Part shown: one piece after another, positions 22,068-50,215 of the stretch
Numbering within the stretch: position 1 is the stretch's first letter
Layout: each line of letters starts with the position of its first letter
NCBI GenBank assembly: GCA_022496205.1
Contig: WTXD01000005.1
Location: forward strand, 682,001 to 746,000
From: Gloeopeniophorella convolvens
Taxonomy: Eukaryota; Basidiomycota; Agaricomycetes; Russulales
Length of the DNA stretch: 64,000 bases
Direction of reading: 5' to 3'
The notes under the pieces: generated by a model
What the model saw: only the letters and a program-made list of their open reading frames with translations
The model's database searches: none
What the model was told of the DNA's origin: nothing
Position numbers and translations under genes: made by a program

Positions 22068-22277
22068 GCCAGGTGGCATACTTAGAGCCCAAGCTTGCAT
22101 TTATAACTGTGTTGTATCATCTCAGCTCTCCAGACTGTATCTGTACGTGTACACGTCGTATGCAATGTAGCACCCTCGACGCCCTCCTCCCACTCGGACT
22201 CCATGACAGAGCTTGCCGTATAAATTAGATGACGGCAAACAAACACAGTGCTCCTCTAAGTACTCATGCATGTGCGT

Positions 22278-25200
22278 CTACTGGTACCACCTCTCGCGCA
22301 GCCGCTTCCGCCCTACCATCGGTTTGGTGACGGCGATCGCCGCGACGAGCCCGCCGATGGTGAAGACGAGCTGTACCTTGTTGAACGTCTCGCTGAGCAC
22401 GTCGAACGTGCCCGAGGGCGTGACGCGCGTGCAGAACAGGTCGAGCCCGTACGCGAAGACGAGCGAGGTCGACTCGAGCAGCGCGGGCGCCGTCAGGATG
22501 CGGCGCACGTTCGCGACCTGCGTAAGCGCACGTGGTCAGATTAGATTCAGACTGCCGCACCGTAGGGTGGCGGGCGACGTACGTGGTAGTTGTGCGAGAG
22601 CACGCGGGTCGGGTCGTCCGGGAGGAGGGGGTCGTACTGCACAAGCCACTCCTCCTGCTCCTCCGCGGTCGGCTTGGTCTTTGGCCGGCGCGGGTTGAGC
22701 ATGATATGCGGGAATGATTGGATCTGGCCGTTCGCGTTCGCCACTGGGGGACCTGTTTAGGGAAGCCGCGCGAAGCCAGGGTCGGAATGCCTACCGATGA
22801 TATCCTTCATTGATACGCCGAATTTGGTTGACGTCGTCGTGATGGCCGTGATCGCATGCGGGAAGACATACGCCTGCTCGACGGTCGACACCGCCAGCGT
22901 CTTGTTCGAGTACGCCGACAACTCCGAGCTGCGCCCTCATCAGCCCCTGCGTGCAATACAAAAACAGACATACGCACCTCTTGGTCCTGTCGTCCGGCTG
23001 CGACCCCTCGTACAGCTCGACGCTGACCAGCCGCCGGCCCTTCGCCTGCCCGACCCACTGGTACTCCTCGTCCCAATACACATACACGAGCCAGTTCTCC
23101 ACGAACGCTGCCTGCAGATCACACTTGCCCCCGCTCTTCGCAGCTGCGATGCTCGCGTGGTACACGATGCTTCCCTTCGCGCCGTCGACGACGTACACGC
23201 CGCACGCCGCGGGCGACGCCGTGGTCACCGCGAATAGATGCGGGTTGAGGTACTTGTACAGCGTCGTGCGGTTGCCGAGCACTTTGCCGAGCGACGCGAC
23301 GTGCCCTGCCGGGCGCGGGATGACCGCGGTGATCTCCTCGCCTGCGGGGAAGGACGACGCCCAGGTGGCGTGTACGACGGCGCGCTCGCCCGCGACGTCG
23401 GTGAATTGATGGCCCGTCAGCTGGCGCCTGCCGAGTGCACCGGTGCGCAGGGCGATGTTCAGCTTGCCGACGACCTTCTCGAAGGCCTTTGCATTTGCGG
23501 CCGTCTCAGGGTACACGTATGCCTGTAGTAGTGTGAGCACGCTGGAAGCGATGTTTTGGAAGGGCCACGGACCTGACGGAATTCGTCAAGGAGGACAACG
23601 GCCTTGCTGCTCCCGGGAAGTTGGTACGCCTCCAGCAACGGGCCAGAAATAAGGTCGAGGCCTTGCAGGACGGTGCCGGCCGGCGACTTGCCCAGCACAT
23701 CCTCGCCAGTAAGCGCATTGACATGGAACAACACGGTATCGACGAGACCCTGAAGCACAGGTTAGCCCTAGTGTCCCATACACAGCAAACGAGCGCACGC
23801 ACGTTGCCAGCCTTCCGCTGCGTGACGAACACAGCCTCGGGGTTCCCGCCGTCCGCCACCGTGCGCACGATGAACAGCTTGCTCGGTATGACTTGCCCGC
23901 CGACCTTCGCGGCCCACCCAAGGCCCAGCACGCGGCTCCAGAGCACAGCACCGCTGCTCGAGTCGAGCCCGTAAATCTTGCCGAGGTCGTTCGCGGCGAC
24001 GATGACCTGGCGGAAGCCGAACGCGTCGCGCGCGAGCGGGTCGAGGTCAGACTCGGTCGGGGAGGCTGGGGTGGCCCGCGTGTGCGCGGATGCATACGAG
24101 CCCGTCGCGAAGCGCTTGACAAAGTGCAGGAGGTACTGAGGCAGGTCCTGCGGATCGACTTAGTGTCGCCGAATGCGGCGCGCACGTGTTGGGAAGGGCG
24201 CACCTTGGCATCCGTGAGCTGTCGCGTAACGCGCCCTATGAACGTCTCATGCTCGTTGACGATGTGCGTCGCGATCGTTTTGCGCTCGGGCAGCTCGACC
24301 ATCTCGGCTACCTGCAGCCTGGAGAGACCCTCCTCACGCGTCCACTGCACGATGTTGCCCTGCCAGAGCTGGATAGCGCCAGTCGTCGTAGTCACGGCGA
24401 TATAAGGGAGCAGGTCGAGTTCTTTCACGTATGCTGTGTGCAGTGCAACCTGAGAAACTGATGAGTATATGAGGAATGTCGATAATTGAAGGTGTTGTTA
24501 CTGACATGGCTTATTATTCCATGTGCCTCGGTGTCAAAGTTGAACGTGAATCCAGAGACGAGGCCCTGCCCGTCGGAGAGGTGAGGAGCATACACATGCG
24601 CACTGGCTTTCTAGATAAGATGCAAGTCGAGGTGTGAACTTACTCCAATTGCTGAAATGGTGCAACTTACGCCCAACGCCAACGACCAGAAGACGCGTCC
24701 GATGTAAGGCAAGCCTGCTTTGTCAAGACCGCCAATGTAGAACGAGTCCGTGTTTTTGTTCGACTTGGCCTAGAGTGCTTCTTCAGTGACATCACAAACC
24801 ATACGTTGCACATACACGCACCGAATCCGAGAACTCCCAGATGACCTTCAACCCTTCCTTGTCCGCGTCGAGCTTGAGCACGCGCCCAGCGTCATCTGTT
24901 TTGAGGGCGACAAAGTAGCCCTTGTGCTGCAAACCAAGATCGATTATCTTGCTGTACGTAGTACCCTTCACAGTCGCAGGCTTCTCGGTGAGCTGAGGCA
25001 CGAGCGCGACGGAGCGGATGGCGCCGGCCTCGAGCCAGATGGCGCGCGGGCTGAGGTCGGCGGTGTCAGACGAGAGGGTGAGGATGCCCGACGGCCCGTC
25101 CGTGATGCTCGAGGGAACGTTCGCGGAGGTGACAAGCTCTCCAGTGGCCGCAGACAAAGAAGTGACGTGCAAGGTGTAAGAGGCGAACGACTTGGCGAGA

Positions 25201-25954
25201 CCGACGACGTAGACGGTGGACGGGGTGGCGACGAGCTTTGCGTAGATGACGGAAGAGCTAAAGGCGCGTTCATGTTACGAACATCAACAGAGAGGGATGA
25301 TTTCATACCTAGCGTCGGGAGATTCCCAAGTCCACTCTACGTTGCCGGTGCGTCCGATGCGTCGCACTTGGCAGCCGTTGGTCATGACAAACACATCGTT
25401 AGAGCCTTCTACATGGACTACCGATGTCCCAAAGTCATCTGGTTCGAGTAGGCGGCCTGTGTGGGGTGAATGGAGGCGCTTTTCCAGGATGAGGTGTCCC
25501 GTGGCATAGTCGAAAGTCCTGAGTGTTGCACCGCCAGGCCCAGATAGCGATGTGACCACTGGAGAAATATGAGACCGCGATAACCCGCAGCAGGTAATAT
25601 CGCACCATCTCCGTTCTTTTGGTAGTATACAATGTTGTCTGCGGGCTCGTAGATATACCGCCATGCTGTGCCGGAGTTCTGTCACCAGTAGACGTGGTAC
25701 GGACGACGCGCACCTAATGAGCCATTCACGGCATGCAAAGCGGCCAGCACATTGCTGCTCGTCGCGGTGAGTAGCAGAGCCTCTGTTGGCGGCCGCCCGG
25801 GCTTGTTGTGAAATGCAGGGGCAGTGGAGAGGGAGTGGGTGAGCGGGACACCAGCGTACGCTTGGTGCCAGTCGACGACGCCCACATCTGATTCATGAAG
25901 GGCGGCTGCTGCAGACCACAGCGTAGTCAGAAAGAGAAAAGAAAAGGTGCGCAT
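22278..25954 (-). CDS. EMC1: ER membrane protein complex subunit 1
   Basis: EMC1 is the large lumenal subunit of the ER membrane insertase that inserts tail-anchored and multi-pass proteins. The start at 25954 opens with a signal peptide (MRTFSFLFLTTLWSAAAAL). A PQQ-like beta-propeller follows, with motifs such as 'DFGTSVVHVEGSNDVFVMTN', 'IAANDLGKIYGLDSSSGAVLW'-like text near 24000, and 'TVLFHVNALTGEDVLGKSPAG'. The C-terminal DUF1620/EMC1 domain has 'AYVFPHAITAITTTSTKFGV', 'IQSFPHIMLNPRRPKTKP' and 'YDPLLPDDPTRVLSHNY'. It ends with a single transmembrane helix (VQLVFTIGGLVAAIAVTKPM) and a short tail 'RERWYQ'. About ten exons keep frame throughout, and I found no disruption. It is divergent with UBC15 across 218 bp. 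Confidence 0.92.
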
Positions 25955-26172
25955 GGCGTGTTGTGGCCAGAAACGCGCGCTGAGCGTTTCCCCTCGATGG
26001 CCGACTTGTGTTTAGAGAATGGCCGCGTCGCTGGCCTGTCGTCCGCTTACATAATAGCAGCGAGGAGATATAAGCAGAGGAAGAAAGCGCAGACACAGTC
26101 TTTCTCCTCCTTGCTCTCTATCTGCACTTGTCTCCTTTACCAAAACTACTGCAGTCCGCAAATATCGACGCA
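25955..26172. promoter_or_regulatory. Divergent promoter region, EMC1 / UBC15
   Basis: These 218 bp lie between opposed start codons. A pyrimidine-rich tract (about 26097-26135) precedes the UBC15 start, as is common for fungal leaders. Both genes serve ER or protein turnover functions, so co-regulation is possible but only inferred. Confidence 0.5.
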
Positions 26173-27134
26173 ATGTCCACCGCAGGATCACCCGCACCCT
26201 CCAATACCCTCCTGCTCCGCCGCCAGCTCGCGGAGCTCACCAAGCACCCCGTTGAGGGCTTCTCCGCCGGTGCGTGCCCCAGCTCTCGCGCCCTGCGTCC
26301 CGCAGCGTCCATCCTGATAACACCACCCCCGCGCAGGCCTCGTGGAAGACGGTAACCTCTACGAGTGGGAGATTATGATCATAGGGTGCGCCGCCCCCTT
26401 GCGCCGTTCCCCGCCCCCCGCCCCAGCGCTGATCCCCGATGGTTCGATCGCAGCCCAGCCGACACGATCTAGTGCGTCCCCGCGCCGCCACCGTGCGCCC
26501 GCATCGCTGATCTGCGTCTGCAGCGAGGGTGGCTTTTTCAAGGCGCGGTTAACCTTCCCACCCGAGTTCCCGCTCCTGCCGCCCAAGATGCGCTTCATCA
26601 CCCCGATGTGGCACCCGAACAGTGCGTCCACCCCGCGCTGCTGCTGACAGGGTGGTCTGAGGCTGATGGGCGGTGTGCAGTCTACCCCGACGGCGTCGTC
26701 TGCATCTCGATCCTCGTAAGCGCCCACGCGTCGCCTTCCCGTTGACTCGACCCGGCTGACACTGCGCCCAGCACGCACCCGGCGACGACCAATACGGCTA
26801 CGAGGACGCCGGCGAGCGGTGGATGCCCGTGCACTCGGTCGAGTCCATAGTCAGTGCCCGCCCCCACGCCAATGCGCCGCAGCCAAACTGACCAGCGCGT
26901 GCGCGCACGCTCGCGTATTCAGCTGCTAAGCGTCATCTCGCTACTCTCGTCCAACACGCCGAACCTCGACAGCCCGGCGAACGTCGACGCTGCCAAGGAG
27001 GTCCGGACAGATTTCGCCTGTACGTGCGCTGTGCTGCCCCAACTCGCCCACGCTCACCTGACGATCGCACACACCAGCGTATAGGAAGAAGGTCCGCCGC
27101 CTCGTCCGCCGGAGCGCCGAGGAGGCCTTCGACT
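26173..27134 (+). CDS. UBC15: Ubiquitin-conjugating enzyme E2, UBE2G1/Ubc15 type
   Basis: This E2 transfers ubiquitin to ligases and resembles human UBE2G1 and fission yeast Ubc15. Eight exons (26173-26269, 26337-26385, 26454-26471, 26524-26621, 26681-26715, 26772-26849, 26933-27019, 27078-27134) join in phase to 172 residues. The N-terminal 'LLLRRQLAELTKHPVEGFSAG' is nearly identical to the UBE2G1 pattern. The active site lies in 'HPNIYPDGVVCISIL', followed by the class-specific insertion 'HAPGDDQYGYEDAGERWMP' and 'PANVDAAKEVRTDF'. The C-terminal basic helix is 'RKKVRRLVRRSAEEAFD'. Exon 3 is an 18-base microexon. It differs from the UBC7 gene at 2702 mainly at both ends of the protein, so the two are old paralogues and not a recent duplicate. 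Confidence 0.94.
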
Positions 27135-27799
27135 AGAGCTCGTAGTTAGTGCCCAGTAGCCCCGCGCCTGCGCATCCCCCTCTCCTACTCAGGACCCTTT
27201 TTGTTGATGATTTCTGGCATATATATTCCGCTACTACGTCTGTACCACCCCCCATTTCCCCGGTCCCCGACCCTGCCCCTCCCACCGGTTCTCTTGCTAT
27301 TGAAGTGTCGTTGTAACGAACCACCCCCGCCATCGCGCGACAAGTTCAGGTCGTGGCATGTGAGCGCAGTGCGCTCGGGCGTACATTATCAGTCCAAGTC
27401 TGTCTAGTCCATCGCATGGTCATTTCGTCCGCCGCACCCGGCCACCTCGCACTCGGACTTGTACAACAAACACACTTCAAGCTTCAAAGCTTTATGGGCA
27501 GTACACGCACGCACGAACGCACATCCAAGGCAACGGCGGCGCGGGGGGGCAGGTGCGCAGCCTGGTATATGATACGTACAGTACATCCCCGGCCGAGCGA
27601 GCGCGCGCGCGCGGGCCATGGCATCGTACAGTGCAGTCGTGAACATGAACAATAAAAACGCGGCCGGGAGACGAGACGGGAAAGAAGAGAGACGAGGCAC
27701 AGGGAGGTACTAGTAAGAAGCGACGCCTGCAGTATATAAAAAGAAAAAGAAAAGGAAAAGAAAAGGAGACGCAGCAGAGGGGGTCCGTCCGCGAGACGC
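27135..27799. other. Convergent 3' region, UBC15 / CLA4
   Basis: This is untranslated flank of two converging genes. It contains an A-rich tract around 27735-27770 and no gene-like frame. Confidence 0.5.
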
Positions 27800-30781
27800 T
27801 TACGATGCCTGCTTGTTCGTGCGGAACCGCAGGAGGGGCGCGAGCCCCGAGAGCGCGCACGCCTTCTTCAAAAATTCGTGCTGCATGCATGCACCCACCC
27901 ATCAGCGCCCGCAAAGCAAAAACGTGGAGAGGGACGGGGGACGGGGACACGCACCTCGAGCAGCTCGCCGGCCGTCGCACGGCTCTTGACGTCGACGCAC
28001 AGACACACGCTCAGGAACGCCTTGAGCTCGCGCGAGAGCGCCTCGGGCTTCTTGAGCGTCGGCGTGCCGTTCGTCGCGATCAAATACAGCGCCTTGAGCG
28101 GCTCCTCGTCGAGGTACGGCGGCTCCTGCTCGATCATCTCGATCGCCATGATCCCGAGCGACCAGATGTCCACCTTGGCGCCGTACTCCTTCTGCTTGAC
28201 CACCTCGGGCGCCATCCAGTACGGCGTGCCGACCATCGTCGCGCGCTTCGACTTTTGGTCCGTCAGCTTGGCGCAGAAGCCAAAGTCGGCTGGGTGCGGG
28301 CGGGTGGTGAGGGGGGAGACGGGGAGGTCGGGAAAGGGAGGGGGTACGCACTGATTTTGACGCGCCCGGCGGCGTCGAGAAGCACGTTGTCCGACTTGAT
28401 GTCGCGGTGGATGATGTGCTGGCTGTGCAGGTGCCCGAGGCCCTTGCACGTCTGCCCACACACACGCCCGTCAGCCCCGCCCCCCACACACCCACAAACA
28501 CACCCGCACGCACCTCGTTCGAGATACACGCAATCTGGTCCTCCTCGAGCGTGTTGTTCTCGATGATGTCCGTGAGCGCGCCGCCCTCCATGAATTCCAT
28601 GACGACCCAGAGCTCGTTCGAGCGTATGAGGTACGAGTTGAGGAAGTTGACGATGTTCGGGTGACGGCTCTCCTTCATGACCATGATCTCGTTCACGATC
28701 AGCTCCTTGCGCGGCTGCGTCGCCAGGTCCATCTCCTTGATCGCCACCTTTTTCCCCGTCGCGAGCGTCTTGGCCACGTACACGTGCCCCGACGCGCTGC
28801 GCCGCACAACGTCAGCCCAGACCCGCCGCGCCAATGCAACGACGGCCCACGCACCCCTGCCCGATCTTCTTGATCTTGCTGTACAGCAGCTTCGGGTCGC
28901 TCGGATCGACGACCGAGCGCATCTTGTCCATGATCTGCGCCTCGCTCATTGTGCTGATCCGCTTCTCGACCTCCTTGACCTTAGGCTTCTCCAGCGCCGC
29001 GGCCGCGGCCGCCACGCTCCTGTCCTTCCCGTCGTCGCCGCCCTCGACGACCGCCGTGATCCCGCCGGGCTGTGGCAGCGGCTTCTTGTTCGTCTGCAGT
29101 GGCTTGACCGGCGGCGGGCCAGCGAGCGCGCCGGCTGCCCCGCCCACCGGCTGCGTTGCGGGCGTGCTGCTGCCGGCATCGACTTGGCCGGCGCGAGCGG
29201 AGGCCGCTGCTCGCGCTCAAGCTCGTCACGCTCCCGCTCCCGCTCGAGCAGCTCTCGCTCGCGTTCGCGCTCCTCGCGCTGCTGCTGCTCCCGCTCGCGC
29301 GACCGCTCGCGGTCCCGTTCCTCGGGCCGCAGCGTCTGCAGCGAGTCCTTGCGCTCCGGCACGGCCTGGTCGCCCGGGCCTTGCGCCTTGACGCGTGGCG
29401 GAGGTCGGACGGGTCCGGCTTGGGCGCGGACGGCGCGGGACGCGTCGCCGTGAGCAGCGGGCGCGGCGGCGCGGGGCGCGTCGCCGTGAGCCCGGGCCGG
29501 GCGCCGTTTGCCGGTGGCGCGGCGATCGTCTGCGAGTACGCGCCGTTGACGTAGTCGGCCGCGCGTTGCGCGCCGAGCGCGAGGTTCGTCGCCGCAGAGT
29601 CGACCGCGGGAGGCGCCGATTCCTGGCGAAGGATGGGCAGGCGCGGGGGCGTCGTCGTTGGCGTGGACGGGCCTTCGGCGAGTGTGGGCAGCTTGCCGAG
29701 GCCGCCGAGGCCGGTGCCGGCGCCGAACCGTGCTAGGAAAGTGTGAGCGGGAAGACGGGCACAGAAGAGAGGATTTGGCGTACGTGTGCTGGCGCCGGAT
29801 GCTATTCGCGTGGCGGGAGAGAGGCCAAGCTCCTCCATCTCCCGCTTCTGGTGGTCGGTGTAAAACTCGAGCACGTCGAGCACGGCCTGCGGGTCGCGCT
29901 GGTAGTCCTCGCGCGTGATGGCCGACTTTGTAAGCAGCTTGCTCCATTGCTCGGGCATGCCCTGCGCATACGCTTGCATCACGAGGCAGGACGGGAGAGA
30001 GCAGCGGATCACGTACAGTAAAGGCACCAGAGTGGGAGTCAAAGCCGACATGCACCTTGTGGACAAAGTTGGTGGGGTTGCTGACGCCGCTAAGGGGGCT
30101 GCGGGAGTAGATGTCGTCCTGCCATCCGTAGAGCTCCTCGTCGCCCTTGACGGAGAGGTAGTACCGCTTGTCTTTGGTCTCGAGCAGGAGGCAATAAGGT
30201 TTAAGATCCGTCCGCTCGATGTTGGACAGGTCGCGTAACCAGATGGTGCTTTGTGGGGGCGAGGTCTGAGGGGCGAGGGGTCAGCACCTGCGCCTGGTCC
30301 CTTATTCCAGGTGCGCCGGCGGGGCAATCGTGGTGCCAGATGGGGCGCGGCAGGGCGCGGTGCCGGGGCAACCGCGCCGACAGGACAGCGCCGCCGGTCC
30401 CCGCCCAGCCACCCAGCACACAGCTAACAAAGCAAAGAAGGGGAGACTGACCTCGTTCTTGTGCACGGTGAGGGACTGCTCCTTGAGGACGAGAAACTTT
30501 TCTCTCCAGAGCCAGCTCGCAAAAGCGTCCTCCTTGAAGCCGGCGAGGCCCTGGCGGATGATGCCCGACTCACCGGAGCCGCGGTTGGGGAAGCCACCGA
30601 TGTTGGGTGTACCGCCGATGCCCGAGTAGGAGGTAGCGTAGGAGGAGGTGGAGGGGGTGAGGGTGAGGGACGAGCCGGCGGGGTAGGAGATGGAGGAGCT
30701 GGTCGAGGTGGAGCGGATGGGAATCTGGGGCGCAGGGCGGGAGGGCGTGAGGGAGGTGGCCGTGACTTGGTTGAAGGCCAT
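27800..30781 (-). CDS. CLA4: PAK-family Ser/Thr kinase, CLA4 type (two frame breaks)
   Basis: This is a Cdc42/Rac effector kinase acting in polarity, septin organisation and mating morphogenesis. The start at 30781 opens a Ser/Pro-rich leader. A PH domain follows ('[20 protein letters not shown]' to '[20 protein letters not shown]'), placing it with Cla4 rather than Ste20. The CRIB motif is '[19 protein letters not shown]', then a 'MPEQWSKLL' stretch, a Pro/Ala linker, and a charged Arg/Glu coiled segment (about 29200-29330). The C-terminal kinase domain has 'VAIKEMDL' (ATP lysine), '[11 protein letters not shown]', 'DFGFCAKL' and '[11 protein letters not shown]'. The last exon encodes '[17 protein letters not shown]' and the stop. 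The frame changes twice within the linker, near 29400 and near 29165, each equal to one missing base with no plausible intron. The kinase and N-terminal domains are otherwise intact. Confidence 0.9.
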
Positions 30782-31341
30782 GATGACGGGCGAGCAGGAA
30801 GAGGCAAACGCGGTCGTCAGGGAACTAGGTTGTGTGTATTAAAAAGGGAAGAAGATGCAGGCGCAGATAACGACACAGGGCCGAGATGCGGGGCGTCGCT
30901 GTGGCTGCGCTCGCCGACGTTACGGGGCGCGGAGACGAGAGCAACGATGGGGAGCGGTGGTCGAGCTGGAGACGAGGGAGCTGAGAGAGAGGGCGATGGA
31001 GAGATGGGCTGTAGCAGCTGTAGCCAAGCGAACGGACGCGATCTGATGAATCATGCCCTCGCCCTTGTTCTGCCCCTGACACATCCTATCCACAACATAT
31101 TTCCCCTCTTTTCTCAACGAGCTACCCACAACAGCGCTCGCTTGTGTCGATCCAACAGTCCCACTCTAACAGCGAATCACGCCCAGCAACGAGCCGCTCT
31201 TGCCCACCGCGGCGCAACCCGTATGGAAACAGCCCCCGGACGTGGCAGTGCCCATCCAGGCGTCCAGGCGTCCGCCACTGATGGCCAACGGAAATACGAT
31301 TATAGAATGCTCTATTATGGTACAGCAACCTCCGTATCCCT
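30782..31341. other. CLA4 upstream region and 3' flank of uS19m gene
   Basis: It contains the presumed CLA4 promoter and 5' leader, and the 3' flank of the ribosomal protein gene. No coding features were recognised. Confidence 0.5.
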
Positions 31342-31809
31342 CTACTTGTTCTTCGTCTGCCTGGCAACAAACGCGCATTAGCACCCGGCAGCACAGAGAA
31401 CACAGAGAGCCCCGCGCACTTGTACACGAAGCGCTTCTTGGTGTGCGAAAACTCGCCCAGCTTGTGCCCGACCATGTCCTGCGTCACGTTCACCGGCACA
31501 TAGTCCTTCCCGTTGTGCACCAGGAACCGCAGCCTGTCCGCCACCCGCGCGTCAGAACCGCACGCATGCACACATGGCGAGCCAGCACGCACCCGACAAA
31601 GTTCGGCAGGATCGTGCACGCGCGCGCCTGGGTTTTGATGGGGGTGTTGTTCGCGAGCGCGTCGCGGATGTTAGGGAACGCGACGAAGAACGGTCCTGCA
31701 CGGGAGAGAGGGAGCGGGTCAGCCATGCTCTGCGTCATGCGAGTGTGCGCGAGGCGCACGCACCTTTCCATGCGGACCGTCCTGAGCGCAAGATGAGCGA
31801 CGGGTGCAT
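31342..31809 (-). CDS. RSM19: Mitochondrial small ribosomal subunit protein uS19
   Basis: This is the mitochondrial homologue of bacterial S19, which binds 16S-type rRNA in the small-subunit head. Four exons (31809-31764, 31695-31593, 31533-31420, 31360-31342) join in phase to 93 residues. The family blocks are '[19 protein letters not shown]', '[20 protein letters not shown]', '[20 protein letters not shown]' and the end 'KKRFVYKQTKNK'. The last exon is only 19 bases and supplies the conserved basic 'QTKNK' tail. Without it the frame would run into unrelated sequence. The start ATG at 31809 is the only in-frame ATG after an upstream stop. The short N-terminus may act as the mitochondrial targeting signal. 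Confidence 0.93.
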
Positions 31810-32106
31810 GTGCGTGCGGTGGGGATGGAGGAGGGACAGCGTCGCGCCGGGCGCCTTGCCGAGTCGGAGTGAGCTGTCGGCGGAGTGCCACGTGGCGATG
31901 CAATCTTATCTTATCGTGCCCGACTCGGCGACAGCCCCGTGTCCACCCTCTCCAGCAGTGCTACAGAACACCCGTGTATTCCAACAGACACACGACACAA
32001 CCTAGATCTATGTAGTACGCGGCGCCAGCGACCGTCCTCAGCGCCCGCGCCCTAACTTACAGCGCATAAAGATATCCCTCTACCCAATAAGTAACCCATC
32101 ATTTCC

Positions 32107-35100
32107 TCAGGGACTGCGCGCCGACCCATTCGCGCTGCCCCCATGCGCCGCCGCGAGCTGCGCAAGCACGCCGACAACCTCCTCGCGCGCAAGCCGCCAG
32201 CGTGCGTCCGTCCCGCCCGCGCCCGTCGAGCAAGTCTCGGCGTCGTCCAGCTCGCCGAGCCGGCGCAGCAGCTTCTCGTCCCGCCCGAGCGCGAGCACAA
32301 AGTCCTTCGCGTGCGCGATGCTCTCGCTCTCGTCGCTCAGCGCCCACGCCGCACGCGGCGAGTGCGTCGGCCCACCCGCGTGCAGGATCGCGCCGACCGC
32401 CGTCGAGCGCGAGATATAGTTCGGCAGCACCAGGAACGAGTTTTCGCCCGGGATGATCCGCAGGCCGTACCGCTCCCCCAGGCTGCGCGCGCGGCGGGTT
32501 AGCTCGGCGGGTTGTGAGAGGAGGAAAGGACAATGAGGACCCACCTGTCGAAAATGTGGTTCTGCGCCTCGGCGGCCTGGCGCCGCGCCCACGCGCGGTC
32601 TCCAGCGTCGATTGCATCGTCGCCGCTGAAGTAGCGCCACACGATGCTCGCCTCCCGCTCCTCGACGAATGAGCCAGGCGTGCGCTCCGTGAACTACACA
32701 TTCCATGAGCACACACAGCCGCTGACCACACGGGCGGACGCACATAATTCAAGATCTCGATGCATGCGCTCTTCCACGTCAGGTTAAAGTTGGCCACCAT
32801 CGTGATCCACGACGACTCGCCACTCTTGCCGGGGATAGGCTTGACGAAGCACCCGTTCTCCGCCCTGGAAGCCTATCAGTCCCCCGACGTTCTTGGCTTC
32901 CGACAGGGCGTACTCACACAAACCCGACCCTCGGAAGGTCCTTCGCGAGCTCGTCCAGCGTACGCGTCGTCAGCCCGCTCAGCAACCACACCTCGTTCTT
33001 CGTGTCCTCCGACAGGCGCCGCACGACGTCGACCGCCTCGCGCGGCACGTCCTCGCTCTTGCCCGCGTCGCGCTCGCGCCGCGGGATGCGGGGCCAGAGC
33101 GTGTCCTCGAGGTCAACGAGCAGCAACCGGCGCTGCGAATGGCGGTAGCGAGGGAGCAGCCGCGCAAGGTCCAGCTTCGCGACAAGCACGTCGCCCTGCT
33201 GGTGCTCGATGTTCATCCGCAGGCAGCGCGTCAGGAACGACGTCACGAATGTCTGCGCGGTTTGCGTCACCACGTGGTTGTGCAGGTCCTGCGATGACGT
33301 GCGTGAGCGGCGGCAGGACTCCAATGAAGGCCCAAGGCGTGGCGACTTACGTCCCAGCGCGAGAACGCTTCGTCATCGTCCATCGTGAGCGCCTGGTGGA
33401 TCGCCTTGGCCGTGTTGCGCGTGTCCCACGGGTTCACCGCAATGCACGAGCGGAAGCCGCTGTAGCTGTAAGATCCGGTGAACTGCACAACGAATGACAT
33501 CAGTCGCGGCCCATAGAGGGACATCATTTGACCGGCGTACCTCACTCAGAATGAGCGGCCGATGACGCGTATCTTGGCAGACGACGAATTCGTGCGTGCG
33601 CAGCGCCATGCCCTCGCGCATGCACGTAACCAGGAACGCATCCGCGACCGTCAGCAGCGCGAGGTACTGGCTGAAGCTGAGGTCCTCGGTGTGCAGGAAC
33701 ACGACGGGCTGGTACGTGAGCGTCGAGAAGCGCGAATTGATACGGGCGACGACGTCCGCCACGCCGCCGTGCGCCTCATTCTCTTCCGACGTCTGGAGCG
33801 CGACTTGGATGAGGATGACCTTGTGGTGGAACTCGGGATGCTTCTCGAGGAATGCCTCGAACGCCAGTAGCTTGTGGCGCACGCCCTGGATGATACGATC
33901 AGAAATTGGGCGCGAGAACCTGACGCGCGGGCCTAACCTGTACTTCATCAAGCTTGTCACGCCCGACAACAAGCTTGACACCGGCGTAGCGTTCCTTCAG
34001 AGTCTGGACCCACTGCGCGACCTCAGGATCACGTCTGCCAAACGCGAACACCTGAATTAGCGCCACTGTTCCTATCCTCAATCAACAGAGAAGCGCAACA
34101 ACGCTCACTTCTTCTCGGCGAGCGCCTTGACATCGATGCCGACCGGGAATACGCCAACGTCGACAAAGTGGTCGTCGAGCTGGATACCCTTCGGCAGCGT
34201 CTCGAGCGCCAGGATGCGCGAGACCGTCTGGCGGAAGTGGCGCGCGTAATTGGCCGTTTGGAAGCCGATGAGGTCCGCGGAGAGCATGCCACGTAGCAGC
34301 GATTCGCGCACGGACAAGCAGCGGAAGATCTCGGACGAGGGAAACGCGACGTGCAGGAAGAAGCCGATAATGGCAGTAGGAAGCTTCGCTCGGACCAGCT
34401 GCGGCACGAGCATCAAGTGGTAATCGTTTACCCAGACTGGCCGCGTCTTGTTAGTGCCAAAAATTCGTTTGGCGATGGGAAGACATACTGATGTCGCCTT
34501 CCTGGTAGTTCGCGATAATAGTATCTGCGAAACGCTGGTTCACCGACACGTATTGTTTGTAACTCGAGCTCTCGTAGAAAGTTTTTGTCTTCGGCGCGTC
34601 CGGGACGACGTAGTGCAAGCACGGCCAGAGCACTTGATGGCAGAAATTGTCATAGTACTGAGTGAACTCTTCGTCAGGGATCCAGACCGGCGAGCTGTCG
34701 TATTCCTCGCCCATGCGGCGGTCGATGTTGCGCCGCAAGTGGTCCTTGAAGAAATCCGTGTTAGTGCCCAGGGTGCCAACCCACATCTTGCGTTTGAGGC
34801 GTCCCTCGACCGAATTGACGGCGTTGGTGAGACCGCCATTGCCGTGAGGGTTTGGCTCGATGTGGTACTGGCGGCCGATGGGCGAGTCTGAGAGCGGCCG
34901 GCGTGCGATGGAGCGGGTGTTCTTGCGCTGAGAACGGAGTGGGACGTGTGCATGGTGCTCGTCTATCGAGCGCTGGCGAATAGGAGCCGGGGAGCCAGAG
35001 GGGTCAGCGAAGAGAGCGGTGGGCGCGGGAGACCTGGTTCCCGCGTCGCCAAATGCCGGCGAGAACGACGCGAAGAGTGGATTAACGTGCTCCACGCCCG

Positions 35101-35565
35101 GAGTTGTTGCAGGTGTGCCCGCTCGGGACTGCGAACAGATCAGTAAGTATCATCTATGCGCCAGGACGCTAGAAAGGGTGGGTTCGGCAGCTTTCAGCGA
35201 AAATTGGGGCCCTGGACAACTTGTGCACCCGAGATGCATTCAGATGCAAGGGGAGCGCGTCGGACCGGAGATGCCGTCCGCGCAGGCGCCGCCACGTCGA
35301 AGACACAGAATTCTGAGGTGCATTCAAGCCTCACCTTGTCTTTTAGGTCCTCGACAATACTGAGGATCGGTGCGGGGGTACGAGCTCTTGATGGAGGTAG
35401 AGACAGCTTGAACGGCTGGTCTTTGCCGACACCGGGGAAAGCCGTCGGTAACGGAGCATGGAGAGCGGTCCGTTCTGGTGTGGGAGGGTGGGACTCGCCG
35501 ATGATGGCAGTGTTAGGGAGAAAGAGGGACGCGATGATGACCCGATGGTTTCTGAAGGAGCTCAT
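32107..35565 (-). CDS. Trehalose-6-phosphate synthase complex subunit, Tps3/Tsl1-like
   Basis: This is a cytosolic subunit of the trehalose synthase complex. An N-terminal low-complexity region (start at 35565) precedes a GT20 synthase domain. That domain has 'GFFLHVAFPSSEIFRCLSVR', 'DLIGFQTANYARHF', 'VFPVGIDVKAL', 'LVVGRDKLDEVQGVRHKLLA' and 'VTCMREGMALRTHEFVVCQ'. A trehalose-phosphatase (HAD) domain follows with 'RLLLVDLEDTLWP', 'VWLLSGLTTRTLDEL' and 'VAENGCFVKP'. HAD motif I normally reads D-x-D-x-T; here the third position is Glu and the spacing is altered, so phosphatase activity is doubtful. That favours a regulatory Tps3/Tsl1-type role over a Tps2 enzyme. The stop is at 32107. About eight exons remain in frame. 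The gene lies in the same strand block as CLA4 and RSM19. Confidence 0.86.
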
Positions 35566-36412
35566 TGCAGTGCGGGAGAGGGGATGGGGTGCCCGGACAA
35601 CTGAACGTATGCATCTTTTAAGTATGACGCTCTTGGCCGGAGGTTGCCGGGGGTATGATGTCTCTCTCCCCGGGGCTGGCGCATCTCGCTGGCTCTCTGC
35701 TTCCTGCCGCGCAGCGCATACACGTTTATCACGTTCTGCGCCCCCATAGGACGCCTTTTATCGTAGACGCCTTTCTCGACCTAGAAGTTGCTGTCCAGCA
35801 GAGCGTCCGACCGTATCATAGAATCACGGCCCGCTAATATCTCCCATAGTCCTCCTTATGTCTTCGAACACCCATCGATCAGCTGTTTCCCGGGGTGATC
35901 ACTTCAACTCACAAGATCTCAACCTTGGCGGGGAATTGACGGATCTTCGCCGTTCCTCGTATCATGCAACAGTGATTTACCTCGTAGCCGTTGTACCGAG
36001 ACGGCTGCTGATCGTGTTGTACAACAAATATTAATGTTGATGCCGCGTGCTACCCCCACCCTCGTCAGTGTGGAGAAAGTCCCCTGATAGTGGCCCCAGC
36101 CGCGGCTGATTTGCAGATTTCGTCATGTGTATCATGATCGGTTCACAAGATAGGTCCAGACTCTGGAGAAACGTAAAGGAAGTGCAGGCTTGTCCGACCC
36201 TGTCACCAGCGCCCACCCAAGCGCGACCCCCCGCTCTGATATAGCTCTGTTGCTGCCTGTCCTCCCAATCCATCTCTTCGTAGCTGGCATTTCTACAACC
36301 TAATTCCGCATCCCAGTAAGAGACAAGACTCAGCCGATATATATCGATACATGGTATGATTGTCGAAGATCGTCGCCAGGGCCCGAATATGAACAGTCCG
36401 CGTTCTACCGGA
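35566..36412. other. Upstream region of the TPS-like gene
   Basis: These 0.85 kb precede the TPS-like start and follow the FolB gene's stop. Local AT-rich patches were seen near 35980-36040, and no gene. Confidence 0.5.
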
Positions 36413-37209
36413 TCATGTGCTACACGGACGTTGCAGCTGCACCACGAGTGCGTCCGCGAATGCCATGGCCGATGGCCTCCTTGCGCGAATGATCACCTCC
36501 TTGCAATGCGCGCTGGACGCTGCGCACGCAACGCGCGCTGCCTCGTGCACGACGCGCTCCAGTGTCCGGTGTGCCGACGACTCGGTCTCCTGCGTGACGC
36601 ACCATCACACCATGCGCCCACCTCGAACACAGAACTAGCACGCACCTCTATGACCCGGTCGACGAGCGCTGCATAGTCGACCTCCTCCGCGTGCTCTGGC
36701 TTTTCGCGGAACCAGATGTCCATCACGACACGCTGCTTCCCCTGGCGCTCCGGCTCCATCCCACCCATCAGCACGCCGAGCTCGAGCCCACGCACAAACG
36801 CCAGCACGTCCTGCGACTGCGCGCCATGTGGCGTCGTGAGCTCCCAGCCCATCCCGCCCGTCGCACGGCGGTGCCCGTTCGGCGATTCGAGCACGACGCG
36901 CACCTCCTGCACCGCGTCGCCCGCGTGCGCGAACGCGACACCCGTCACGGCCCGCGCGAGCGCGCGGCCGCTCACCCACGGTACGCCGGCGCGAATGCGA
37001 CCTAGCACCTCGTCCTCGAGGTCCCAGTAGCGGATGGAGAACCGCGCATCGTCGGTCGCGGCGGCGAGTAGCAGGGACGTGGGGTGCAGGTGGAAGTGGA
37101 TTGAGAGCTTGTGCGGCTGCAGCGATCTGTGGCCGAGGATGTCGACGCCGCTCGAGGTGTGGAGGCCAAGGTCTTCGATAGAAACGATATCGGGCGAAGG
37201 TGGCTGCAT
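36413..37209 (-). CDS. FolB-type dihydroneopterin aldolase domain protein
   Basis: Dihydroneopterin aldolase cleaves 7,8-dihydroneopterin to the hydroxymethyl pterin used for folate. Two exons (37209-36646 and 36589-36413) join in phase to 246 residues. There appear to be two FolB half-repeats. The first contains 'VSIEDLGLHTSSGVDILGHR' and 'FSIRYWDLEDEVLGRI'. The second contains 'RVVMDIWFREKPEHAEEVDYAALVDRVI', then 'SSAHRTLERVVHEAARVAC' and 'EVIIRARRPSAMAFADALVV'. In most fungi FolB domains are the front part of the trifunctional Fol1 protein. Here the gene ends after them, with no HPPK or DHPS sequence downstream in about 1 kb. It could be a stand-alone enzyme or a FolB-like paralogue with another role. 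Confidence 0.75.
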
Positions 37210-38042
37210 AGGTCAAGCAATAACAACGCAACGAGCTACGGTGCCTGCTCTCCGTGATATCGAGGGCGGCTTATTGGCGGCTTACTCATAGCATGACGGC
37301 GCGCTCAAAGGGCAGCTCTCCAAGGCAATGATTGGGCCAAGATTGGGCGCTCCGGCGAATAAATGAAATACCGATATATTGGGCGCTTATGCAAAAAGTG
37401 CAAGTTGACGAGCATTACTCTGCATTCACACTGCAGTGGTCACACGTGAGGCATTCAAGTGATAAAACATTGTGTTTTAAGGGCTGGGGCTGCACGGTGA
37501 TGCTGCAGGTCGTGCTCATCACTCCTGCGAGGCGCCCCTTGCACTGGTGGGGCAGCGGCAGTGGGGCAAATAGCAGGAACTGCAGGAACTAGCACGAAGG
37601 TACTTACAGAAGGGGCGCTGGGGTGGTCACGTACTAGCGTCGCAAGATAGTAAGAATGGTTAGCCGCCACAGTGACTGACGCGTTTTCCAAAGGTGGGTT
37701 TTAGTTGGTCTTCAATCACAGATCTCGAGCAGGGTCTAGCCACGAGATCGTTGCGCTCACTTAAGTGCCGTCCATGGGGCCCACCGTTGAATCACTCGCC
37801 CCGCGCTCAGCGGTTACCAATACGCGGGACACCGAGTAGACCAAGATGATATTGGTGGATGGTGGGGTAGTCAATAGTCCGGGTAAGGTTCGTGCACCGT
37901 CATACACGTAGCAGTAAAGTAGCATTGGCTCGTCAGATTCAACGCGTGACTGAGCTGCCCCGGATATAATGAGTCGTGGCTACAGCGAACGAAGGCAGCG
38001 GTGTCGTTTCAGATTACTGCCGTGCAGTATACGCACAGGGGA
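37210..38042. other. Intergenic region between FolB gene and P450
   Basis: It holds the upstream region of the FolB gene and the 3' flank of the P450. A minus-strand frame (37455-37691) ends in Cys-Phe-Ile-Thr but is not convincing as a gene. Confidence 0.45.
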
Positions 38043-45837: not shown

Positions 45838-45978
45838 ATGGACGAATTCGAACGCATTGACATCGTGCTTCCCATCCCCGCTTCATCCTTACCGATGTCG
45901 ATGTCGGGCGTTCCTCTCGACCAAGATCACACCCCGGTGACGGACGGCCCTCACCAAGTCTCCTGTACGATCGCTTGA
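45838..45978 (+). CDS. Mating pheromone precursor candidate (CaaX protein)
   Basis: A single uninterrupted ORF of 46 residues starts MDEFERIDIVLPIP and ends in Cys-Thr-Ile-Ala before the stop. The features match basidiomycete B-locus pheromone precursors: length about 40-60 residues, an N-terminus beginning Met-Asp, no intron, a small-residue/proline-rich middle, a charged pair (Asp-His at 'DQDH') about a dozen residues before the end that could mark N-terminal processing, and a CaaX box for farnesylation and carboxymethylation. The mature peptide would be the ~12-14 residues up to the prenylated Cys. It lies 0.76 kb from the 3' end of the STE3 receptor gene, in convergent orientation. Pheromone genes are too short and variable for reliable recognition, so location and the CaaX box carry most of the weight. 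Confidence 0.72.
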   Translation: MDEFERIDIVLPIPASSLPMSMSGVPLDQDHTPVTDGPHQVSCTIA

Positions 45979-46740
45979 GCGACGAACGGTACATTGAACG
46001 TCTGCCATCCTGCACAGCACCGCTGATCAGAATCCCGCATGCAGCCCTGTGATTGTGTGTCATGGACTCCTCGGACCGGTCTGCGGAGTCGTTGCGCAAT
46101 TCACCCACCCCCTCACCCAGCCCCCGACGCCTATCATTATCACTAACTTACGTTCCCCTCGTTTGGCCTAAATTATTGGCGTCGAGTCGTCCCTCCCACG
46201 CTCCTTTGGTCTCGACCCGCTTCACCTCTTGCTGACAAGTTGCACATACATATCGAAGTCCGTATCGCCAGCTTGTACATATCATTCGCATGCACCTCGG
46301 TTTACAATGTTGTGTAGTCAGTTTCCTATCGAAATGTGAACTGGTGTCGCAAGTCCCCGAGCTGTCTTGGCGACGTGACTCTTCCGGGCAAGCCGCGAGA
46401 CCCTCAAACCTGACTCGTACCTGTCACCAAGTAGTAGCGGCGGTGCTCCGAGGATGAGAATACCATTGCAAGATTTCTTGTAAACAATACAACCGATCAA
46501 CGAGTGTGAGTGCAAAAGCAGAGACAGCGAAGTACGAAGATCGGAATATTCGAGATGAAACTGGCCGTGGACGCACGAAGATTGACTCCAGGACGCCGAC
46601 GACCATATCTGATGTACATTCGTTGGGACGAAAATGGAGGAACGAAATGAGTGTGCATGATGATTCGTACCGAGTCGTGAGGTGAATATGCGTTCAAATG
46701 GCTGAAGCAAGCAGTGAAAGGAAGCCGAGGAAATGGTGCT
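45979..46740. other. Region between pheromone candidate and receptor 3' end
   Basis: Convergent flank of 0.76 kb. I scanned both strands for further Cys-a-a-X-stop patterns and found none with a suitable upstream ATG. Open frames at 46318-46710 (minus) are without motifs. Confidence 0.45.
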
Positions 46741-48151
46741 CTACGCTTTCTGTGCAGCCACCTCTTCAAGAGGCGGTATAATAATCGCCCCTGCGGGCGC
46801 TTGTGTAGCTGACCAGCCCTTGGCAGCGACGAGCGATTCCTGAGAAGAGGGCTGATCACTGTCGAGAGAAGATCCGTCTCGCTTGATGAATACAGGAAGA
46901 GATCCAGTCTCTTGGTGAGCCGATGTCTTGCGCTTTCTGGAGGGGCTGACGAGGGCCGTCAGTCAGATACGAACATTCGAGCCAAGACACTTGGACATAC
47001 AGCGTAAAGGAAAACAGGGCGGCTATGCGGGTTAGGTAGAGTCGTCTGTAAATGACTGCGTAACATTTGCGATAGTTTTTGAGGGCTTCATCGCCGAAAC
47101 CGAAAAAGACGAAGAATACGAAAGCCGAAAGGGGGACGAGCCAGCGAGTGATGATGAGCGAGGCCGCAAGCCCGTGGTCCGGCTGCCAGAGAGAAGCTGA
47201 TATAAGTTCGACGCGAGAGAAGTCGAAGTGGATATTAGACCAGCTGATCCAAGGCTGTATTTCACCGCTGGCATTGAATATGATGACGAACACTGACAAA
47301 GGAGTCGTTAAACTCATTTCAGTCATGGACAGGGCGATGAGTCGGAAGTAGCGGCCGGTGGTCATGGTGCTACTGTTGGCTAAGAATTCCTTCATTTCCG
47401 CTTGACGGATCCAGAAGGCGCGGATTGACAGGACTGTGAACGAGTTAGCTAAGACACGCAAGGGCAGACCGCCACTTACTGCCATATACTGCCGAGATTA
47501 GACCAAGCAATAAAGGCCACATGTAAACCAATACATATGCTAGAGCGGTATTCACAGTGGCTGGGAAACACCCGATATCTTCGAAGATGTTAAAGCGATG
47601 ACCCTGTACCACGTACGCTGGCATAATATCAGCATCGAGGTCCAAGAAGATACGTGGTGTCGATTACCTAAGGCCACGCATACAAACGGGAGAACAATAC
47701 AGATAAAAGTGTCGATGATGATATTCCTCAATTTCTTGAAGCGCTAGTGAGTGGCATCGATCGTATGACGAGTACACGAAGCTTACCTCGGCTCTCGTCA
47801 CTGTGACGGCCCGAATTGTTGCGATGCAATACAAGCGTCGACTGATGCACATTGATGCCGCAGGAATGGCAACGGAGGAACCAATCATGATACGAGTGGC
47901 TACAAAACGGGGTGAGGAAAACGTGCCAGAGGTACACTGGGTGGCATACATATATCGCACCAGACGGGCGCAACATTCAGCGCGTTGTTGCGCCAGATCA
48001 TGGAGTTGACGAACTGATTCAGGCATGCCACCGACGTCCAGATCATGAAATAGCAAGTTCCGGAGTTCCAGGCCTCCAGATGCCAGGGTAGAGGAATGGC
48101 AACGAGGACTGCGCCTAGAAGCGCGCAGACAGGAAAAACTGGCTCGAACAT
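46741..48151 (-). CDS. STE3: STE3-type mating pheromone receptor (seven-helix GPCR)
   Basis: This is a class D G-protein-coupled receptor that binds lipidated a-factor-type pheromones at the plasma membrane and signals through the heterotrimeric G protein and MAP kinase cascade. Six exons (48151-47950, 47899-47787, 47743-47668, 47617-47480, 47433-47001, 46945-46741) join in phase to 388 residues with no disruption. Helix 1 is 'FPVCALLGAVLVAIPLPWHL'. The family markers 'NSMIWRNNALNVAPVWCDIS' and 'TRIMIGSSVAIPAASMCISR' follow, then 'RRLYCIA', 'IFEDIGCFPATVNTALAYVL', and the long third cytoplasmic loop beginning 'RQAEMKEFLANSSTMTTGRY'. Helix 7 is 'FFVFFGFGDEALKNYRK'. The cytoplasmic tail ends 'LPVFIKRDGSS...AAQKA'. 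A start at 48250 is possible in frame but adds residues unlike the family. Pheromone candidate and CLA4 linkage support a mating-locus receptor. Confidence 0.94.
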
Positions 48152-50215
48152 AGCCACGACAGAGGGGCGGAGGGAGCGAAAAGATAGTCTGGGGTGATAC
48201 TCCGCATCTTGCCACAGTGAGCAGCTTTTAAGTGATAGTGCAACGTGCACACGTTGGATCCTCAGTGAAAGACACAGTGCCGCAACAAAGGATCGACTCG
48301 GCCGTGACTGTGGAGGTTCAAGCGGAGGCTTAAAGCGGTATGCGTACGTAAGCGGTCCTCATCTTGTCCACCGCCGGCGGCTAGCCTCGACGACTGTAAT
48401 CGGCGGTCCACAACCTACAGTGTGTCTTAATCCCACCACTGGACTTCGTGCCAAAGTTCCGCCGTAGGAATGTGACTGAATAATTGGAATCCAAGTAAAA
48501 TTCCGGGACCCACGTATCCGTATATAATTCCTGCCTGATTTATGCATGTTTTCCCGGCACGCAGAGGGAACACGTCGCGCAAAGTCCGGCTCTGGTGGCC
48601 CGGGGGCTCCGTGACCGACAGAATCTTCTTAAGTCGTGTTTTGGCTGGAGCCCCTGAGTACTTGAGTACATCCATCTATCCCTTCCTCCCCCATGTGCAC
48701 AAAATACATTCCCTGCCCTTGTCCACAATGCTCTGACTTCGATACCCCACTTTTTCAGTCGACAAGGACGGCGCATGGCCACGGAGAAGAGGAAGAGATG
48801 TGCGAAGCCTAAGGTCCGGCCTATGCAGAGCACACGGTGCTGTGGCCCAACGATGCAAAAGCTGCGCACTCGCGCCCCCGCACGTGCCCCACTTCCGAAT
48901 ATTCGACTCCCAGCATTCGAGGATGCTCCACCGCCGAAATGGGCCCGGCTGACGACGCGCTCGCAATCGACGCGGATGACCTACGGTCAGGTGAGCGAGG
49001 GCCAATGTTCATCTGAGAGCTTAAATTTTTCAGTGACCAGCAGAGTCGGGGGCCCCATGCTCTTCTTTTCATTTCCGGGGTGCAGGAATGCCCCCCCTTT
49101 CTCTCCTCCGTTTCTCTTACTCACCCATTCCTGTACACTGTGAAGGCGGGCCGACACCTGTAAACCCAACAGCGCCATCTTCGTGTGCAACGCCGCCGGC
49201 CTTGCGCTCAAGAGCACCCTCACCGCCCGCGTACGTCGCGCCCCTGCCCCCCGCCCTCTGTCTCGTCGCAAGCGCAGCCCTTCCCCTTCGGCGCTCCCCT
49301 TCGCTTACATCCATCCCTGCTCCTGCAGGGTGCTGCACGCATAGCCGAGTACACGCATTGCTGGCTCGTCCTCGAATCGAAGATCTGTGGCAAGACCAAG
49401 GATTCTGTCCTCAGCAGGGCGCACTCGGACACGGTCCGCGTCGGCATCAGGCGCTCTGCAATTCACTCGCATTCATCCGCAAGAACTCGAGCGCGAGGTG
49501 CGTGAGGTATCCCCGCACTGGCATGTCTTGTCCGCGTGACTCACGTTTGCAGATTCCGTGGTGCAGGGTGAACGCAATTACATTGTGCAGGTCATGTCCG
49601 AGGCAACGCAGAGCGTCCGGATCCCCGATCCAAACAGCGAAAGGACCTCCAGGCACTCCAGGCACTCCTCTCCGAGAATGGTGTCGTCGTGAACGGAACG
49701 ATGCTCGGGAGCGTAGATGACCCAAGGGAGCTGCGCGAGGCCGAGTGGCAGGCTGAGTGCCGCCTGCATCGGTTTGCTAGCGGCGGTACAAGATGATGAA
49801 CAGCCTCCTTGAGCCTCTCCTTCGTCTGATCGCCTGTGGCGCATGGTTGCTGACGTGCGCAGGCCCGTGCGCGCACGGATTTTCCGCGCGAACACACAAA
49901 GCTTTCAATGTCAGCTCAAATAATGGTCGCGCTGACGGGGCACCACACTTCCATTGGGTATGGGACGGCTACGGTACATAGATAAGGTGCTGTGCTACAT
50001 ATTCACTTTGGAATTGGAGGGTTCTGTCCACATTCACGCGTGCTATGAGGTAGACAGTGCGAGGGAGGGACCAGGAGGGCGGCTAGGATCAGACAGAAGC
50101 GCCGGGCCGGCCCCACCGTTCGACAATGGATCGCAAGAAAGTGCTCTAAATTGTGCTAATTGTCTGCCATACAGGAACCTACCCGTCATGATTCAGGCGA
50201 TTGACAGCTGACGGA
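48152..50215. other. Upstream flank of STE3 with possible unassigned split gene
   Basis: Two kilobases lie between the receptor start and the Mutator-like element. An ACAAAG core (48285-48290) lies about 135 bp upstream of STE3. Between about 48825 and 49797 on the plus strand, exon-like patches occur. One reads 'AEHTVLWPNDAKAAHSRPRT' and ends 'DALAIDADDLRSG'. Another reads 'RIEDLWQDQGFCPQQGA'. A third ends 'KQRKDLQALQALLSENGVVV...LHRFASGGTR' at 49797. Codon-like content suggests a gene or its remains, but I could not build one frame through all parts or name it. Confidence 0.35.

Follow-up and report, generated by a model that had tools for sequence, protein, structure and literature searches.

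A receptor gene of the STE3 family and a small open reading frame (ORF) that is a candidate pheromone precursor lie side by side in the DNA analysed here, and the pair is best read, from its sequence and surroundings, as belonging to the orthologue of the B (pheromone/receptor, P/R) mating locus of Gloeopeniophorella convolvens, a crust fungus of the order Russulales. It is probable, though far from certain, that the P/R role in mating type has been lost at this locus, with the homeodomain (HD, or A) locus alone deciding. The window, by which we mean the whole stretch of 64,000 nucleotides that was analysed, corresponds to C350:682001-746000 of an assembly of 36.68 Mb in 404 contigs, and the features within it that matter to the argument are as follows.

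27905..28945, minus strand: exon ORF with a protein kinase domain (PF00069, 4.9e-16)
28984..30423, minus strand: exon ORF with a P21-Rho-binding domain (PF00786, 1.9e-8), the N-terminal part of a PAK/CLA4-type kinase
45838..45978, plus strand: candidate pheromone precursor of 46 aa, MDEF start and CTIA (CaaX) end, with a putative 12-residue mature peptide after DQDH
46741..48151, minus strand: STE3 pheromone receptor gene, six exons, 385 aa (gene models, Pfam STE3, deposited protein P0001 and an AlphaFold model of P0001)

That the receptor is intact had been claimed in an earlier note on this DNA, and a profile search of the 388-residue product bears this out with a match to the full length of Pfam STE3 (PF02076; profile 1-292 of 292, E=8e-104, 347.4 bits against a cut-off of 29.2). 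The top protein match is the deposited G. convolvens protein P0001, with 99% identity over 83% of the query, which is already annotated as a STE3-type pheromone receptor. The six in-phase exons described previously were reproduced on the minus strand (48151-47950, 47899-47787, 47734-47668, 47617-47480, 47433-47001 and 46945-46741), all introns being GT-AG and the product 388 aa, but an exon-3 acceptor 9 nt further on, giving 385 aa, fits the relatives better, as it restores the residues TRAEK that are present in several of them and in P0001. P0001 itself (365 aa) uses this same acceptor yet reads into intron 5, whilst the spliced last exon includes SLPVF, which by eye resembles LPxY stretches in the tails of several relatives. 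The best model therefore combines the exon-3 acceptor of P0001 with the spliced last exon, and the public model probably runs through the last intron, leaving its C-terminal tail wrong. An AlphaFold model of P0001 (mean pLDDT 75.9) has seven long helices, of which the first is broken in two, and an extra C-terminal helix, with the helices presumably placed in the membrane; no PDB relative of the receptor was found by sequence at 1e-3. The gene is thus a member of the STE3 family, apparently intact and with a predicted seven-helix fold.

The small ORF (46 codons plus stop, start context CAACCATGG) was recovered exactly as first reported, running from MDEF to CTIA, and is convergent (tail to tail) with the receptor gene at a distance of 762 bp, which is the linkage of a MAT-B (P/R) locus, given that the ORF encodes a pheromone. 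It has the hallmarks of a precursor in being short, with an MD[x]F start and a C-terminal CaaX, and when 204 kb were scanned for intronless ORFs with an MD start and CaaX end, only one other came to light, outside the window.

C350:670240-670404, minus strand: second pheromone-type precursor of 54 aa, ending CVVA, which passes the PF08015 cut-off (9.6e-5, 23.8 bits against 22)

For this second precursor, the closest STE3 remnant is ~20 kb away and the closest STE3 gene ~51 kb. The two align over DQ[DE]H, 11 residues and then the CaaX cysteine, so that the pair DH, 11 residues before the cysteine in the window ORF, corresponds to EH in the other. The cleavage motif of precursors is given in PMC5473757 as two residues, usually ER, 10-15 residues before the CaaX; it is E/R in the matB precursors of Flammulina velutipes (PMC3140503), in contrast to D/H here. 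As this arrangement is common to the second precursor on the contig, the window ORF is probably a pheromone precursor. Among 100 sequences simulated from the 204 kb by an order-2 Markov model, the mean number of CaaX ORFs of 35-80 aa with an MD start was 0.21, compared with the two observed, of which the window ORF is one, and with the stricter demand of an acidic residue plus H, R or N 9-12 residues before the cysteine there was one case in all 100 sequences; that the window ORF arose by chance is accordingly judged unlikely.

Against this, PF08015 does not match the window ORF at E up to 10. The profile is also weak on published precursors, with those of the F. velutipes matB scoring 0.0013, 0.45 and 0.035 (PMC3140503), a likeness to its poor performance here, and it is for these reasons that we term the ORF a candidate pheromone and not a confirmed member of the PF08015 family. 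A profile search of the protein database found no relative of the window ORF, and no database protein had three five-residue words in common with either precursor of the region, a weak test given how short these proteins are; annotation often overlooks precursor genes, according to PMC5473757. The F. velutipes precursors are comparable in other ways, being 46 and 54 aa long and 320, 427 and 2102 bp from receptors (PMC3140503).

The earlier note had found no more than a single receptor and a single candidate pheromone, and had taken this to be the minimal form of the locus or one half of a larger allele. Within the window the count holds, but contig C350 carries six STE3 genes together with one pseudogene, one fragment and the second pheromone-type ORF described above. 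The gene models of R1, R2, R4, R5 and R6 have unrefined tails.

C350 615.1-616.4 kb, minus strand: R1, STE3 gene
C350 618.2-619.6 kb, minus strand: R2, STE3 gene
C350 643.5-644.8 kb: STE3 pseudogene, a stop-ridden copy
C350 650 kb: STE3 fragment
C350 728.7-730.2 kb, minus strand: the window receptor, STE3 gene
C350 748.3-749.4 kb, plus strand: R4, STE3 gene
C350 751.8-753.4 kb, plus strand: R5, STE3 gene
C350 754.7-756.2 kb, plus strand: R6, STE3 gene
C350:771165-772661: SNF2-domain ORF (Pfam scan), the right flank

The deposited G. convolvens proteins P0121, P0122, P0123 and P0129 map to the same contig, with P0121 identical (100%) to R5 and P0129 at zero distance from R1 in the receptor tree. 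The kinase-domain ORF of the window is taken, from the order of P21-Rho-binding domain then kinase on the minus strand, to be part of the same PAK/CLA4-type gene as its neighbour, and this gene on the left and SNF2 on the right enclose the window receptor, R4, R5 and R6, a block of ~60 kb with four apparently intact receptors that continues past the window edge. A minimal B locus is therefore rejected. R1 and R2 are outside the block, in a stretch of repeated duplications (C350:612-658 kb) that holds these two genes, the pseudogene and the fragment. The PAK-type gene is itself within a part of the window (20001-38000) with a G+C of 0.575-0.681 in 2 kb bins, compared with 0.513-0.579 in the remainder.

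It is the position of the window receptor and three other STE3 genes between PAK and SNF2, both published flanks of MAT-B, that leads us to read the locus as the B orthologue. In Trichaptum MAT-B is flanked by PAK, RSM19, DML1, RIC1 and SNF2 (PMC8970355), and two of these five were found in the C350 region; RSM19, DML1 and RIC1 were not found by Pfam among its 54 ORF pieces, which leave out exons of less than ~95 aa and could let a small RSM19 escape. As here, the Trichaptum locus is described as a block of four STE3 genes whose flanks include PAK and SNF2, but it spans 30.3 kb and has two precursor genes, between the receptors, whereas one precursor was found inside the ~60 kb from PAK to SNF2 (PMC8970355). 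Linkage of a CLA4/PAK-type kinase to the mating locus in other mushrooms is stated in PMC3140503, in which CLA4 is reported as unlinked to matB in F. velutipes itself, unlike the linked kinase found here.

The phylogeny of the receptors was inferred from 65 rows, comprising 59 chosen from 211 proteins found by protein searches and the six C350 gene models. The window receptor pairs with P0095 of Artomyces (99/60) and then with P0004 of Hericium (98/96), both of them Russulales, and falls outside a 40-row clade (100/98) that contains R1, R2, R5 and R6. Also within this clade are a record named as a putative B mating type protein of Heterobasidion and one named STE3.1, whilst a record named as the Hypsizygus mating-type protein STE3.2 is outside it. 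As records named for mating type occur on both sides, the tree alone leaves the function of the receptor unsettled. The end branch of the window receptor is 0.77 compared with a median of 0.31, R1 and R2 are also on long branches, and R4 is on a very long branch with its placement unsure.

Whether a P/R locus with these features determines mating type can be judged against the other mating locus, as MIP and homeodomain genes occur on both C1 (966.5-969.9 kb) and a 14.2 kb contig, C184, neither of which is C350.

C1:966.5-973.6 kb and C184:1-6133: two MAT-A (HD1/HD2) alleles, with a divergent core between near-identical flanks

The flanks of C184 have 93.9% DNA identity to C1 over 1.2 kb and 95.5% over 3.9 kb (97% over 6.4 kb in a separate search), whilst the core of 4.9 kb has no blastn match to its 5.8 kb counterpart at 1e-10. 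Between the two, protein identity is 48.7% for HD1 (347-column alignment), 41.9% for HD2 (160 columns) and 96.2% for MIP (212). The C184 HD1 matches both Mating_N and Homeobox_KN; the Mating_C profile (PF12737) matched nothing anywhere, controls included, and is hence uninformative. With HD1 and HD2 so strongly divergent between near-identical flanks, the assembly seems to derive from a dikaryon with two MAT-A alleles. The strongest Homeobox_KN match in the genome (2.4e-16) is elsewhere, at C365:15571-15678, away from both MAT-A copies.

If the P/R locus were heterozygous and divergent in the same manner, the assembly should contain another STE3 cassette. Only one version of the window receptor came out of profile and protein searches across all 404 contigs, with STE3 occurring only on C350 and as a fragment on C267, and the window ORF has a single match in the genome. 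An allelic DNA copy was absent for all three of the 10 kb stretches of C350 that were searched, although the same type of search finds the MAT-A haplotig C184 (1 of 1): with window 40-50 kb as the query only a dispersed repeat was matched, with window 24-34 kb only short 71-82% matches at the kinase, and with C350 746-756 kb nothing but R2, at 65%. The repeat lies upstream of the receptor, at window 48436-50000, and has copies on C1, C68, C146, C383, C354, C290 and C190 and elsewhere on C350. Where it aligns with C350, at ~648.6-658.5 kb, C267 is 94.7-97.7% identical, and it looks like a leftover haplotig at background divergence, although it is possibly a paralogue given the duplicated stretch in which it matches; together with C184 it makes two contigs identified as resembling leftover haplotigs. 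As assemblers drop alternate haplotypes, the missing second haplotype is weak evidence. Low polymorphism between mating types had been proposed beforehand, together with no transcription of the small ORF, as what would count against a mating locus, and the low polymorphism appears here in weak form, as a single version of receptor and ORF in one assembly. The B mating locus first proposed is thus upheld as to its STE3 receptor, plausible pheromone and PAK and SNF2 flanks, whilst its determination of mating type is doubtful with one version found against two MAT-A alleles.

As two MAT-A alleles are retained and yet no second version of the receptor or ORF was found, the evidence leans towards mating in this strain being HD-only (bipolar), as in Heterobasidion, also of the Russulales, which is bipolar with a single MAT-A locus (PMC3489678). 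According to PMC10598064, bipolar species have either linked mating loci or one locus, usually P/PR, that no longer takes part. Agaricus bisporus (PMC8305134) and Amanita phalloides (PMC10598064) are given as bipolar Agaricomycetes in which P/R genes persist but have no mating-type role, and the polymorphic HD locus and the presence of receptor genes described for such species are found here also. The likeness is incomplete, as the orthologous receptor of A. bisporus has no linked precursor according to PMC8305134, whereas a pheromone-type ORF is beside the receptor here. This linkage, as in a working B locus, is counted against HD-only mating, whilst the PF08015 miss and the DH cleavage pair weigh against the small ORF as a pheromone.

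The same linkage, along with the conserved PAK and SNF2 flanks, would be expected if the species were tetrapolar and this were a B locus that determines mating type, its second allele lost or purged from the assembly, and we regard this as a serious possibility but on the whole a doubtful one. The receptor being outside the 40-row clade together with the Hypsizygus STE3.2 record is in keeping with it, and the window ORF is unlike the dispersed precursors described below, very distinct sequences being typical of B-mating-type precursors according to PMC4101180. Set against it are the one P/R version found in an assembly that keeps two MAT-A alleles, and the one pheromone found for the four receptors of the block, as in the Boletales the number of precursors per receptor tends to be higher in tetrapolar than in bipolar species (PMC5473757). 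It is unlikely that the adjacent pheromone and receptor have turned into a self-activating (autocrine) pair, though such a pair would explain a B pathway that is on in every cell and a shift to HD-only mating with the linked cassette kept intact. It is very improbable that the receptor is a STE3-like paralogue with no part in mating and that the neighbouring ORF ends in CaaX by chance. The PF08015 miss, the long end branch and the lack of proteins with enough words in common (the weak test above) might point to this, but it is opposed by the low chance expectation for such ORFs, the DQ[DE]H motif that recurs in a PF08015-positive ORF of the contig, the 762 bp distance and the MAT-B-type flanks.

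What is known of the family suggests that the product of the small ORF would be farnesylated and processed to a lipopeptide of ~12 residues, which would be trimmed before export. The receptor would bind a pheromone of this type and signal via a heterotrimeric G protein and MAP kinase cascade, which would drive nuclear migration and clamp fusion. Less certainly, the P/R locus would no longer decide mating type, this being left to the homeodomain (A) locus, and the receptors might then be a common signalling module, perhaps fed by self-made pheromones. Among the papers listed from the open-licence literature, judged by titles and the starts of abstracts, none was on the mating system of G. convolvens or its genus, and as far as they show this is the first map of both mating regions in this Russulales crust fungus, with strongly divergent HD alleles and an apparently non-divergent P/R locus contrasted in the same assembly. 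If reads confirm this, it would be an independent case of the transition from tetrapolar to bipolar mating with apparently working pheromone cassettes kept.

Self-made pheromones could include those of a dispersed family. When the genome was searched with PF08015, the 670 kb precursor was not recovered and a single weak match (E 1.55) pointed to this family, and a whole-genome search with a C235 precursor as the query then gave eight precursor-type ORFs, itself included, at E 1.9e-19 to 0.0085.

C235:91823-91936, 93804-93917 and 102322-102438: three dispersed precursors
C201:199340, C350:930768 and C301:25908: one dispersed precursor each
C39:12365 and 14137: two dispersed precursors

All eight have a cysteine four residues from the end, and PF08015 matches six of them at E < 10 with one passing the cut-off. 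They resemble one another and not the window ORF, the family (at least eight) having similar predicted mature peptides of the ES-xGxGSxTSC type, and seven of them lie on contigs that have no STE3 match. Such a dispersed family of pheromone-type precursors is of a known kind, as A. bisporus also has extra pheromone-precursor-like genes away from its receptors (PMC8305134).
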